NCBI GenBank assembly: GCA_028873515.1
Contig: JAGWIG010000029.1
Coordinates: 1 to 32,823, forward strand
Direction of reading: 5' to 3'
Length of the DNA: 32,823 bases
From: Pseudomonadota bacterium
GTDB taxonomy: Bacteria > Pseudomonadota > Gammaproteobacteria > Burkholderiales > REEB80
The translations under genes and the position numbers were made by a program. The notes below the pieces were generated by a model that did not search any database, had not been told where the DNA came from, and was given only the letters and a program-made list of their open reading frames with translations. Shown piece after piece: positions 7,885-26,081 of this stretch (position 1 is its first letter; every line of letters starts with the position of its first letter).

Positions 7885-8088
7885 ATTATACCCCCTGGTT
7901 TCCGGTTCTTGTACAAAGCAAGTTCCGAATAGCAGTATCTTGGGTAATAGCTTGCATTCTGTTACTTCGGCTTTCGCTTACTGACCCTTTCAGGCGGGAC
8001 GACCTCTTCGGATCATCCTCACGACCTTAATGTTATCCGTCGTGTTCAGACTGTTGCTTGCACTTGCGTGCCCCTCTCACTCAGTCGT
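7885..8088 (-). other. Spacer after the capsid gene, structured
   Basis: These 204 bases hold no credible gene. On the minus strand there is a GCAC-GCAA-GTGC hairpin (8060-8071) and a GC-GAAA-GC mini-hairpin further on, both with GNRA-type loops. An ACGACC word is repeated about 24 nt apart (7999 and 8022). No U-tract terminator is visible between the capsid stop and the 7884 start, so the two genes may share a transcript. Confidence 0.35.
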
Positions 8089-8634
8089 TCAGGCTGCTTG
8101 CGCTTGCCCCTCGTCACCCCATCGGGCTTCCGAGTCAATCAGAGAAGGTTTATACAGACCTAAGTGTTTAGCCTGTGCGAATTTAACCGCCAAGGTAGCA
8201 TTCTGAGCTAACATGCCAGAGTAGTACGGATCACGATAGATCAGGTTCATGGAATATCCATCCTGATTGATATGCGTGAGCGCTTGCTTTCCAAGAACGG
8301 TATTGTAATACACGTCTTGTGAGTTAGCACTGGCTTGTCTCGCAATCGGTGCTTCCGAGCTTGTTACAATCCTGATGTTATAGACAGAACCGTACTCGCT
8401 TGGGAGTGCCGATGTGTTGTTAGGGTAGTTCCAGCTGCTTAAGAAGCCAGAACCTGTAAGGGCATCGAAATTCGTTTGTAGCTCTGTTGAGGACAGCATG
8501 AAGTATGCTGAACGGACAGGGCCTGTTCCGAATTTCAAGTCGCCTTCGATACCTGACATGAACTTGTAGGCATTGTTCGTGTCAAGAGTCGTTGCCACAA
8601 GGCTAAAATCGCTAACACCAAGGTTAGTTGGGTT
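8089..8634 (-). CDS. Major capsid protein, exon 4 (C-terminal)
   Basis: Codes for residues 147-327 and the stop. It begins NPTNLGVSDFSLVATTLDTN and holds the best-known family stretch, NAYKFMSGIEGDLKFGTGPV, and ends GDEGQAQAA. The open frame continues upstream into the intron as an artefact; that extension is the antisense of the endonuclease gene. Confidence 0.88.
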   Translation of the reverse strand, partial: NPTNLGVSDFSLVATTLDTNNAYKFMSGIEGDLKFGTGPVRSAYFMLSSTELQTNFDALTGSGFLSSWNYPNNTSALPSEYGSVYNIRIVTSSEAPIARQASANSQDVYYNTVLGKQALTHINQDGYSMNLIYRDPYYSGMLAQNATLAVKFAQAKHLGLYKPSLIDSEARWGDEGQAQAA

Positions 8635-11042
8635 CATTTCTATTACTTGTTGACTTAAATAATCCAACCATCTATCATTTCGATCATGATTAAGGATACC
8701 GATCTTGCTTACGCTGCTGGTTATTTCGATGGCGATGGATGTTTTTTTATAGGCAGAATTCACACTGAAGGACGCATTCGTCCCAGATGCAATGTGATTA
8801 TTAATTCTACTCATATTGAAAACTTGCATTGGTTCCAAAAGACATTTGGAGGAACTGTGATTACAAAAAATCACAAAAATCCCAAGGCAAAACCTGTTCA
8901 TCGATACGTGCTTAAGGGAGAACAATTGGATTATTTTACAAATATCGCGCCATTTCTCATTGAAAAAATTGATGAATTCATGATTTTTGAAAATTTTAGA
9001 TCCCAAGATTTTTTTGACGAAAGAGATGATCTGATTGAGAGGATGAAAATCCTTAAAAATTCTGAAAATCTTATCCATTATTCCATAAAAGATAGCGTTG
9101 AAAGCGTTAGAAACACAATTCAACCATCTATATGTGATTGGGCATATTTGGCTGGTTTTATTGACGCTGAATGCTGTTTGAACATACAACGAAATTTTAC
9201 AAAAACCAGACCTAATCCTATTTATAAAATCCAACTCCAATGCAACAACACTAAATCCCCATGTTTTTTCTGGCTTTCTAGACGCTTCGGCGGTCAATTG
9301 CATTTCATTGACAGAAGCGACACCATTCCTAAACAAAGAAATCAAATGTGTTGGAGAGTTTCTTCTAAAGCACTTTTCCCTATTTTGGAAAATGTTCTTC
9401 CATTCCTTAAGCACAAACAACCAATTTGCGAAGAATTGATAAAATTTTACAAAACAACTTTCAATGGGAAGGGGAATCCTAGTCCCAATAGTCCTGGTTT
9501 TGCAGAATTCTACAGACCAGTTCTTGAAGAAAGAGATGTTATTTTTCATAAAATTAAGCAACTCAACAAAAAAGGTTTATAATTTAAGCGGGCAGTCATT
9601 TCTGCTGCCTCCACAGTTTCATATATATCTGTGGTTTGGACTATCGCATCCCGTTTCCGGGTCTCTGGACTTAGTCTCTCACGGTGGCTTTCGCCTTCCG
9701 CCTTGTTAACCTCCGCTTACGCAGCCAGGCACTCCAAGTCAATCACCAAAGATTTTACAACGACAACACGTTTATCGTTATTACTACCGCCGCCAGCGTT
9801 GATTTCAGACGCTGCTGAGACGATGTAGTCTCTCAAAATGAGATCTTCCAGCCTGTTACCCCTCTTTCGAGTGATTAGGTCATTTCTGCCTAATTCTCGG
9901 ATTTTATTTATAGTCCGAGTTCAGAGCACCGCATCTCTATTTCTAGAGTCCAACCGCTTGCTCGTTCAGCCTAGACATTTAAATAGGAGTATGCAACAAT
10001 ATGCATTCATCTACACACAAACAAAAGGAGAGTGTAAATGCCTGAAATTCCTTATGAAAAAGTAATTTATGATCCTATTAAATTGGCTTATCTTGCTGGT
10101 ATCGTTGATGGTGAGGGTTCCCTCTGTATTTACAGAGTAAATCCTGCCAAATATAATAGATATCAGACACCCAATTTCAGATCTGTCCTCAATATTTCCA
10201 ACACAAAAAAGGAACTTTTTGATTGGATTGAGGAACATTTCTCTAATCTGAATCATAAATCCAAAAAACATAAGCGATCCATTTTTAAGAAAAACTCGAC
10301 GCACGAGAGATGGATTTATGAATGGGTTATTCAAGGTCACCGTCTTGTTGACATTTGTAACCAAATACTTCCTTATCTCGTTCTTAAGAAACGACAAGCT
10401 GAACTTATCCTTGAGTTTAGAGCTACCTACACTCAAAAAGGATTCGGAGCACATACGCCTCTCAATCCAGAAACTATGGCAAAGAGAGAAGACATCCGAG
10501 TTGAGATGTGTCGTCTTAACGCTAAAGGCTTTCTTAAAGCTGAATTCGAACATACTATTCCTACTTAAACCCTTGGCCCTTGTTGCCCTCTTGAAAGAGA
10601 GGGTTTCCAAGTCAATCAGGTTAGATTTATACAGGCCTATTATCTCAAGCCTGTCTCATGGCCACGGCAAGTCGCTCTGATACCCAAGCGAGTACTCCCT
10701 CTTGGTCTTGCAAAATTACTTGCTCGTTGATTCAATAAGCCATTAAGCTGCTGCGCAATCACTAACGCAGCCTGTTCCGAAAAAAGCCATTTGCGCATCG
10801 ATGATATCTCTTTGCGGCACTTGAGCTGGGGGATCTATACCAGCATTACCAAGTTGCACAGTGGGTGGCACTAAAGCTCTTGGTCGCATAAAGCGGCAAG
10901 TAGTACCACCATTGGCAGGCATCGACACCTTGTCGGCCACCATAATGTAGTTCATGCTGGGTGTTGGGACATATAGCATCGCCGGAGCTAAGCTCTGGAG
11001 AATCATCGGCCCTAAATTACCAGTAGTTGTAATCTGACTCAT
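8089..11042 (-). CDS. Major capsid protein (N4-gp56 family), split by inserts
   Basis: Joining 11042-10765, 10732-10648, 9848-9774 and 8634-8089 gives one continuous 327-residue protein of typical length for N4-gp56-type capsid proteins. Family signatures read across the junctions: LGPMILQSLAPAMLYVPTPS, FFGTGCV|INEQVILQDQEGVL, WVSERLAVAMRQA|EDLILRD, INAGGGSNND|NPTNLGVSDF, then TTLDTNNAYKFMSGIEGDLK and KFGTGPVRSAYF. Without removal of the inserts the frame stops six codons after Val93. Inserts A and B look like group I introns; insert C (32 nt) looks like a core-less intron. The start has AGAGGT 5 nt upstream of ATG. The protein forms the icosahedral shell; the upstream coiled-coil gene is the likely scaffold. 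Confidence 0.88.
8635..9773 (-). ncRNA. Intron B: group I intron, 1139 nt
   Basis: Exon ATAACGAT pairs with intron GTCGTTGT (P1, 8 bp including the junction U.G, 9-nt loop). The intron ends ...GAAATG before AACCCA, and three P10 pairs (AAC/GTT) are possible. The core lies in the first ~220 nt: the TGATTGACTTGGA word shared with intron A, a GGCGAAAGCC hairpin, a GACTA...TAGTC pair (P7-like), and a CCCG-GAAA-CGGG hairpin followed by ATGCG (P8-like). The endonuclease gene sits after the core near the 3' end, unlike intron A. Removal rejoins SNND to NPTNLG. Confidence 0.82.
8686..9582 (+). CDS. LAGLIDADG homing endonuclease in intron B, 298 aa
   Basis: Two LAGLIDADG motifs are visible: residues 7-23 (LAYAAGYFDGDGCFFIG) and 152-166 (WAYLAGFIDAECCLN), the spacing of a pseudo-symmetric monomeric enzyme. 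The catalytic acids are Asp in motif 1 (FDGDG) and Asp/Glu in motif 2 (IDAE). It is encoded on the plus strand, opposite to the intron that carries it, and fills most of the intron. No clear ribosome-binding site precedes the ATG at 8686, so expression may be low or start elsewhere. Expected to cut the intron-free junction SNND/NPTN in capsid genes and promote homing. Confidence 0.88.
   Translation: MIKDTDLAYAAGYFDGDGCFFIGRIHTEGRIRPRCNVIINSTHIENLHWFQKTFGGTVITKNHKNPKAKPVHRYVLKGEQLDYFTNIAPFLIEKIDEFMIFENFRSQDFFDERDDLIERMKILKNSENLIHYSIKDSVESVRNTIQPSICDWAYLAGFIDAECCLNIQRNFTKTRPNPIYKIQLQCNNTKSPCFFWLSRRFGGQLHFIDRSDTIPKQRNQMCWRVSSKALFPILENVLPFLKHKQPICEELIKFYKTTFNGKGNPSPNSPGFAEFYRPVLEERDVIFHKIKQLNKKGL
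9774..9848 (-). CDS. Major capsid protein, exon 3
   Basis: Exactly 25 codons, EDLILRDYIV to INAGGGSNND, residues 122-146. Both edges are fixed by family conservation, by the terminal G of intron A and by the P1 of intron B (exon ATAACGAT). Confidence 0.82.
9849..10647 (-). ncRNA. Intron A: group I intron, 799 nt
   Basis: Exon ACAGGCT pairs with intron GGCCTGT (P1, 7 bp, U.G at the junction, loop TGAGATAATA). The intron ends in G before GAAGATCTC. The 5' part has TGATTGACTTGGA, shared word for word with intron B. After the embedded gene come a GAGCA...TGCTC pair (P7-like) enclosing a CTCTA-GAAA-TAGAG hairpin followed by ATGCG (P8-like), then hairpins CTCGGA/TCCGAG and TTAGG/CCTAA (P9 region). 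The endonuclease gene therefore splits the core between the P3/P4 side and P7. Removal rejoins MRQA to EDLILRD. Class not assigned. Confidence 0.8.
10038..10568 (+). CDS. LAGLIDADG homing endonuclease in intron A, 176 aa
   Basis: One LAGLIDADG motif is visible at residues 16-32 (LAYLAGIVDGEGSLCIY), with the acidic Asp/Glu pair (DGEG) that binds metal. The length fits a single-motif enzyme acting as a homodimer. The C-terminal half (WVIQGHRLVDICNQILPYLV, then KKRQAELILEF) matches the DNA-binding fold of this family. An AAAGGAG 8 nt upstream of ATG gives strong translation. It lies on the plus strand, opposite to the intron and the capsid gene, so it is not read from the capsid transcript and needs its own promoter. 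Its expected role is to cut intron-less capsid genes and spread the intron. Confidence 0.88.
   Translation: MPEIPYEKVIYDPIKLAYLAGIVDGEGSLCIYRVNPAKYNRYQTPNFRSVLNISNTKKELFDWIEEHFSNLNHKSKKHKRSIFKKNSTHERWIYEWVIQGHRLVDICNQILPYLVLKKRQAELILEFRATYTQKGFGAHTPLNPETMAKREDIRVEMCRLNAKGFLKAEFEHTIPT
10648..10732 (-). CDS. Major capsid protein, exon 2
   Basis: 85 nt coding for the end of Val93 and residues INEQVILQDQEGVL to AVAMRQA (through residue 121), a highly conserved part of the family. The exon ends ...AGACAGGCT and intron A follows. Confidence 0.82.
10733..10764 (-). other. Insert C: 32-nt core-less group I intron remnant
   Basis: This stretch interrupts the capsid codon for Val93 (GT|A) and shifts the frame. 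Read on the minus strand it begins TAGTGATTGCGCAGC and ends TTATTG. GCGCAGC (10756-10750) pairs with exon GCTGCGT through seven base pairs, the last a U.G at the splice junction (P1, loop of 8 nt). The five bases just 5' of that guide, TGATT, pair with the first five bases of the next exon, AATCA (P10). The last base is G, as in group I introns. There is no room for P3-P9, so it cannot self-splice alone. Nearly tandem GCTTAATG/GCTTATTG words at its 3' end may mark the deletion. Confidence 0.65.
10765..11042 (-). CDS. Major capsid protein, exon 1
   Basis: Codes for residues 1-92 and the first two bases of the Val93 codon, from MSQITTTGNLGPM to FFGTGC. The exon ends ...GGCTGCGT; its last seven bases pair with the guide sequence inside the 32-nt insert, and the final T makes the U.G pair expected at a group I 5' splice site. 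Confidence 0.8.
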
Positions 11043-25505: not shown

Positions 25506-25919
25506 ATGTCATACAAAGTAATCAAAAATGGTCCTTATCTTTTGATGAAAGCGCCTGAAAATTATCCCGGGCTTAAATATAGAGGGAAATATATCTATGA
25601 ACATCAATATGTCTGGTGGGTAAATACTAAATTTATATGCCCTACAGGCTATGTGATCCATCATAAAAACAAAGATAGACATGATAATCGATTCGAGAAT
25701 TTAGAGATTATATCCCAAAAGAGTCATACAAAACTTCACTCTCTGGAAAAATCAGTTAAACAGACATTTCTGATATGCGAGTGGTGTAAAAAAATATTCT
25801 CTCGAGAGACAAGAAATTATCGACAGCAAATAAAAAATGGACAAAAGTATTTTCATTGCTGTAGATCTTGTCAGGTAAGAACTCAGCAGAAGCATAGAAG
25901 AGAATCTGTTGCCCTGTAG
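25506..25919 (+). CDS. HNH homing endonuclease, 137 aa
   Basis: The HNH block is at residues 51-67 (IHHKNKDRHDNRFENLE), preceded by YEHQYVWW and followed by SQKSHTKLH, the HNH_3 layout of free-standing phage homing nucleases. A C-terminal CEWC ... HCCRSC pair looks like a zinc finger for DNA binding. Only a weak ribosome-binding site is seen. The stop codon (25917-25919) lies inside the tRNA gene that begins at 25910, so the nuclease gene abuts and overlaps the tRNA. Likely a mobile element. Confidence 0.88.
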   Translation: MSYKVIKNGPYLLMKAPENYPGLKYRGKYIYEHQYVWWVNTKFICPTGYVIHHKNKDRHDNRFENLEIISQKSHTKLHSLEKSVKQTFLICEWCKKIFSRETRNYRQQIKNGQKYFHCCRSCQVRTQQKHRRESVAL

Positions 25920-25984
25920 CACAATTGGTAGTTTGCACCGGTCTGTTAAACCGGAGGTTTCCTGTTCGACTCAGGACGGGGCAG
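25910..25984 (+). tRNA. tRNA-Asn (anticodon GTT)
   Basis: Acceptor TGCCCTG/CGGGGCA (7 bp with one T.G), D arm GCA/TGC with a GGTAG-type loop (AATTGGTAGTT), anticodon stem CCGGT/ACCGG with loop CTGTTAA, variable loop AGGTT, T stem TCCTG/CAGGA with TTCGACT, discriminator G. No encoded CCA. The D stem has only three pairs, which is acceptable. The first 10 bases overlap the end of the HNH gene. Confidence 0.92.
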
Positions 25985-26081
25985 AAATTTCTTGTGGATA
26001 AATTGCTAAATTCGCTAAGATTGCAATCGCAATACCATCCCTGGTAAAGCAGATTGTTCATGAAGTCCAAAAGAATTCTGA

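Follow-up and report, generated by a model that had tools for sequence, protein, structure and literature searches.

The capsid gene of a phage contig is interrupted by a segment of 32 nucleotides (nt) that is probably a non-autonomous coreless intron, removed by group I chemistry for which the following intron of the same transcript supplies the ribozyme. The contig (G000:C68), which sits in a bacterial metagenome-assembled genome (MAG) of 275 contigs, is the window analysed here, 32,823 nt in length, and all positions refer to it unless a locus is named. The capsid gene, on the minus strand, encodes a phrog_1357 major head protein (E 3e-20) and contains, besides the 32-nt insert, introns A, B and C, each a complete group I intron. 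The features on which the argument rests are given below; a slash marks a splice site, L-numbers designate capsid loci, and inserts of the same kind are called coreless elements.

10765 to 11042, minus strand: capsid exon 1 (phrog_1357 match, spliced protein-DNA alignment).
10765 to 10771, minus strand: 5′ exon strand of P1 (GCTGCGT), whose last base is the splice-site U (junction U.G in 52/52 coreless elements).
10733 to 10764, minus strand: U/TAGTGATTGCGCAGCAGCTTAATGGCTTATTG/A, a putative 32-nt coreless mini-intron (matched in position and length by those of L150, L223 and L232).
10757 to 10761, minus strand: predicted internal guide sequence, P10 strand, TGATT (the 3′ exon AATTA of L210 and L224 is matched by TAATT).
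10750 to 10756, minus strand: predicted internal guide sequence, P1 strand, GCGCAGC (a compensatory GTGCAGC stands opposite exon GCTGCAT).
10743 to 10763, minus strand: in-frame extension SDCAAA plus stop TAA, an ssrA-like tag (translation from the upstream exon).
10733, minus strand: terminal G of the coreless intron (in all 52 elements in the U.G register).
10728 to 10732, minus strand: 3′ exon strand of P10, AATCA (pairing and covariation).
10648 to 10732, minus strand: capsid exon 2, 85 nt, which separates the coreless intron from its partner, intron A (spliced protein-DNA alignment).
9849 to 10647, minus strand: intron A, a complete group I intron and the proposed core-supplying partner, with an immediate in-frame stop and no tag (core model matches at 10499-10629, 27 bits, E 0.005, and 9918-9992, 23 bits, E 0.05).

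Exact deletion of 10733-10764 yields the protein sequence ...FFGTGCV/INEQV..., which matches approximately 200 capsid relatives found in metagenomes, nearly all of them with an empty site at the position of the insert. No relative of this capsid was found among cultured phages. An earlier note on this DNA had claimed that the protein reads in this way only if the 32 nt are removed, and both the relatives and the spliced protein-DNA alignment, which set the same boundaries independently, bear it out. The insert contains a TAA in the upstream frame, its length is 2 modulo 3, and frame 2 is closed by a TGA just before ATC. Therefore, it can neither be read through nor be bridged by a single frameshift, and a one-error frameshift was rejected as an explanation because stops occur in both frames. 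Compared with L002, the exon after the insert has 31 synonymous and 1 nonsynonymous codon differences in 57 codons, a pattern by which this exon is under purifying selection. Since an unreadable insert is followed by a conserved exon, something must remove the insert or skip it. In the register that gives U.G and a terminal G (GCTGCGT/TAGTGATT GCGCAGC...TTATTG/AATCA), insert and exons form a P1 of 7 base pairs (bp) and an adjacent P10 of 5 bp, as the same note had described, and 0/500 shuffled inserts reached this pairing. P1 was the main predicted structure when the region was folded alone, with no unusual stability, and a search of viral contigs with the first 15 nt of the insert returned unrelated chance matches only.

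Capsid genes from 137, later about 156, distinct loci were compared by spliced protein-to-DNA alignment; the loci are related by descent, and p-values are only indicative and overstate independence. At the site of the window insert, codon 92, inserts of 32-44 nt were found in 13 further contigs or MAGs. Three of them have exactly 32 nt (the loci listed above, L223 being from a separate MAG) and the remainder 33-44 nt. In total, the approximately 156 genes contain 52 coreless elements, located at codons 88, 92, 104 and 114. Most are 30-93 nt long, and some at codon 104 reach 325-987 nt owing to an open reading frame (ORF) in the P1 loop, usually a two-motif LAGLIDADG endonuclease gene. Because the codon-104 form often carries this gene, mobility of the coreless elements, now or in their ancestors, is probable. 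In the codon-104 element of L181, the endonuclease gene is replaced by an ORF of 74 amino acids (2342-2566 of that locus) with a hydrophobic N terminus and no Pfam match. The tails of the elements, from the guide to the terminal G, are mostly 15-21 nt and, whichever of the four sites they come from, share a motif close to UUG-RYG-NAA-NG.

The splice-site pairings recur throughout this family. In a single register, all 52 elements follow a 5′ exon that ends in U, end themselves in G, and form a P1 of 6-8 bp, whose splice-site pair is U.G, and a P10 of 3-8 bp beside it; the earlier note had taken a failure of these pairs to recur in relatives as a reason to abandon the idea. The guide in every element spans 10-15 nt and is complementary to the junction of the ligated exons, the pair at the splice site being U.G. 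At codon 88, for example, the exons ACTGG, ACCGG, ACAGG and ACGGG face the guides CCAGT, CCGGT, CCTGT and CCCGT, respectively. Where exons differ within a site, Watson-Crick pairing with the element's own exon was observed in 76/78, 40/44, 93/110 and 14/14 comparisons, and the corresponding values for the exon of another element were 0/78, 4/44, 14/110 and 0/14 (223/246 versus 18/246 when summed). Such a guide is the group I internal guide sequence, comprising P1 and P10.

The elements lack a ribozyme core. Since Rfam models gave no group I match above threshold in the window or in nine loci, a model of the core was built from an alignment of 20 small introns of the same capsid gene. The alignment comprises P3, P4, P5, P6, P7 and P8, with P3 and P7 pseudoknotted, and its 28 pairs are 96.9% paired; two-sided changes occur in 22 of the 28, and sliding the partner strand by one column abolishes the signal. 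The resulting covariance model, comprising 22 pairs, matches 91/102 other introns and 0/52 coreless elements, in agreement with the earlier claim that the insert has no core. Sites 97, 99, 117, 120 and 123 are occupied by core group I introns, and sites 88, 92, 104 and 114 never carry a core in this sample; codon 92 is where a full intron in related capsid genes had been suggested as a check. Complete group I introns with a different P1 are located 3 nt downstream of the window insert site in L083 (13338-13592 of that locus) and L135 (codon 93). The coreless elements thus have the P1 with U.G, the adjoining P10 and the terminal G of group I introns (52/52), and do not have the catalytic core P3-P8 with a G-binding P7; because of this they were not filed as group I introns. 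Intron A has the core P3-P8 according to the core model, in a match that is split by its endonuclease gene, and ORF-less relatives at the same site (codon 120) score 111 bits (L224) and 105 bits (L293). A split, trans-spliced group I intron was considered and rejected: the coreless element holds no part of a core, and the partner has a complete core together with splice sites of its own.

When genes were sampled irrespective of their introns, 25/25 of those with a coreless element had a complete group I intron shortly downstream, versus 6/105 of those without one (Fisher 2e-21, relatedness ignored). In the enlarged sample, a core intron always comes next after a coreless element, at a distance of 21-103 nt, wherever the sequence suffices; at the truncated loci L162, L177, L210 and L251 the beginning of the downstream intron is still visible, and L291 ends too early to judge. 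Ten distinct site pairings were observed, always in the order coreless then core, and L252, L255, L258, L263 and L273 show the order coreless-core-coreless-core. Because core introns without a coreless element exist (L136, L154, L185 and L257), the dependence is mostly one-way. Taken together, the 52 instances at four sites, the covariation of P1 and P10, the conserved frame and the core intron always just downstream strongly support the first of two possibilities raised in the earlier note, namely, that a coreless intron is fixed in an essential gene and would be removed by the ribozyme of another intron. Intron A as the specific partner, the family of such elements with its endonuclease-bearing form, and the tag had not been noticed there.

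We propose that the coreless intron carries only the substrate half of the reaction, namely P1 with the 5′ splice site, P10, and the terminal G that marks the 3′ splice site. The ribozyme of the downstream partner (intron A, 85 nt away in the window) would dock the P1 and P10 of the coreless intron like its own, cleave at the U, position the terminal G and P10, and ligate the exons in the two-step group I reaction. The partner would remove itself after or before excising the coreless intron. Action within one transcript is favoured because of the proximity and the fixed order. Engineered group I ribozymes are able to excise short internal segments in trans via P1, P9.0 and P10 (PMC6155759, PMC2813288). 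The sequences themselves show the inserts, their covarying guides, the lack of a core, the constant presence of a core downstream and the in-frame tag described below; splicing of the RNA, action of the neighbour's core in cis and recognition of the tag by ClpXP are what we infer from them. Several points weigh against the proposal. The support is comparative, with both the splicing and the catalyst deduced from it; the obligatory pairing could be partly due to co-inheritance by homing; pairing between the tail of the coreless element and the partner intron was found only at chance level; and normal cores are covalently joined to their P1 and 3′ splice site, whereas docking must here work untethered.

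Another possible source of the catalyst is any group I core in the cell, which would splice the coreless intron truly in trans and make adjacency incidental. The window has three cores, and excised introns in general stay active ribozymes. However, the distance to a core never exceeds 103 nt, and the core is always downstream, although many capsid genes have cores elsewhere, and a freely diffusing ribozyme would need neither adjacency nor polarity. The missing tag in the partner also ties the pair together, and we consider this alternative unlikely. Even less probable is that the co-occurrence reflects joint transfer by homing endonucleases (co-conversion), with some host factor removing the coreless element. 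Endonuclease genes are present in many of these introns, but the ten site pairings involve partners that differ in size and ORF content, some of them only 196-212 nt and without room for an endonuclease gene, and P1, P10 and the terminal G indicate a group I active site. Ribosome bypass, in which P1 and P10 bring the take-off and landing sites together, would suit a short insert with a hairpin and an in-frame stop, and P1 is the main predicted fold; nonetheless, it is very improbable because the take-off and landing triplets match in 0/52 elements, the distance to the stop varies, some elements are about 950 nt long and carry an endonuclease gene, and U.G and the terminal G are splice-site features with no role in bypassing. 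The other possibility raised in the earlier note, a broken gene with the insert as a dead remnant or a product of misassembly, is rejected even for a single, perhaps mis-binned, contig of its MAG, in view of the same site and length in independent assemblies, the covariation and the purifying selection downstream.

Translation from the upstream exon ends in Ala-Ala-stop in 49/52 coreless elements and in 76/85 independent core introns, and the same ending was found in 2/184 and 0/182 cases in the other two frames. The residue before Ala-Ala is usually L, I, V or M, as in ALAA, RLAA, YALLAAA and EQYALAA. The codon-and-stop combinations are 24 and include all three stop codons; because codons and stops vary, the protein end is what is conserved. 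A C-terminal small or hydrophobic residue followed by Ala-Ala at an in-frame stop is what defines an ssrA-like degron, and the transfer-messenger RNA (tmRNA) of the window's MAG encodes the tag ANDSNYALAA. The tag of the codon-88 elements in L252 and L253 is completed by an out-of-frame reading of the following exon. No tag was found in introns within the first 40 codons (0/17), and among core introns directly after a coreless element it was present in 6/47 only. An early in-frame stop was already known in group I introns and was thought to aid splicing (PMC3984707). Here, the tag would direct capsid fragments translated from unspliced RNA to degradation via ClpXP. The coreless and the core intron would act as one unit, with the tag on the coreless element being the first stop met by the ribosome. 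Since partner introns mostly have no tag, the state in which the coreless element is gone and the core intron is retained may be rare, which suggests that both leave together or that the core intron leaves first. Group I cores in other phage genes (L191, 2705-2823; L252, 2589-2701) have no Ala-Ala-stop in the upstream frame, and the tag may for this reason be specific to the capsid gene. We find it reasonably likely that all this amounts to a natural system of two introns and one ribozyme, in which introns reduced to the group I guide and splice signals, some of them encoding a homing endonuclease, live as parasites on the ribozyme of the following intron, and the tag destroys the capsid fragments made from unspliced RNA.

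Phage group I introns resemble the coreless elements in their P1 with U.G, P10, terminal G, early in-frame stop and endonuclease genes, but they have the full P3-P8 core, as do the partner introns, whereas the coreless elements lack a P3-P9 core. The group III introns and twintrons of Euglena plastids are likewise shrunken and dependent on outside help; however, they are derived from group II introns, are about 100 nt long and have other splice signals. The bypassed segment of T4 gene 60 and the mitochondrial byp elements are, like the insert, short and out of frame in essential genes, but the ribosome skips them via matching take-off and landing codons. In the trans-spliced mitochondrial cox1 group I introns of Isoetes, Trichoplax and Helicosporidium (PMC2813288), the group I reaction likewise draws on parts that do not lie together in one cis intron, as they usually do. 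In those cases a single intron is split (in L8 in Trichoplax and Helicosporidium) and its pieces rebuild one core for one splice event, while the capsid coreless intron would borrow its core from another intron that is complete in itself. Trans excision-splicing (PMC6155759) is the same excision of a short internal segment set by P1, P9.0 and P10, with the difference that it is engineered and has the guide in the ribozyme, whereas the capsid system is natural, has the guide in the excised segment and would have the ribozyme downstream on the same RNA. The ssrA/tmRNA degradation tag has the same type of C-terminal end at an in-frame stop (-LAA, -ALAA or -YALLAAA). A literature search of incomplete coverage found neither an intron that uses the ribozyme of another intron nor an intron-encoded ssrA-like tag. 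If the proposal is true, one group I ribozyme removes two introns, and a natural intron depends on the catalyst of another, an intermediate between self-splicing introns and those served by shared machinery. It would also mean that splicing remains possible in introns reduced to about 30 nt, which may be of use for compact RNA excision tools, and that the in-frame tags are a quality control by which the phage marks pre-splicing capsid fragments for destruction.

The remaining features of the introns in the window are the following.

10038 to 10568, plus strand: HNH endonuclease gene in intron A, antisense to the capsid gene (phrog_5046, E 8e-23).
8635 to 9773, minus strand: intron B, a complete group I intron with the tag ...DLECLAA-stop at about 9710-9773 (core model match 9633-9756, 97.9 bits).
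8686 to 9582, plus strand: LAGLIDADG endonuclease gene in intron B, antisense (PF00961, E 6.5e-9).
7959 to 8169, minus strand: intron C, a group I intron with in-frame ...GQAQAA-stop (core model match 8043-8152, 116 bits; ends set by eye, CAGGCT/...AACAG/AATGC).

The endonuclease genes of introns A and B run opposite to the capsid gene, and those of the codon-104 coreless elements are in the sense orientation inside the P1 loop. A portal gene of the P22-like type is located near the capsid gene. The chlamydial PMP family, which was looked for to settle the host of the phage, was not found in the window's MAG, and the capsid type is rare in the class to which this MAG belongs; the phage contig may therefore be mis-binned. 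The contig also has a tRNA-Asn gene (GTT anticodon) at 25909-25985.
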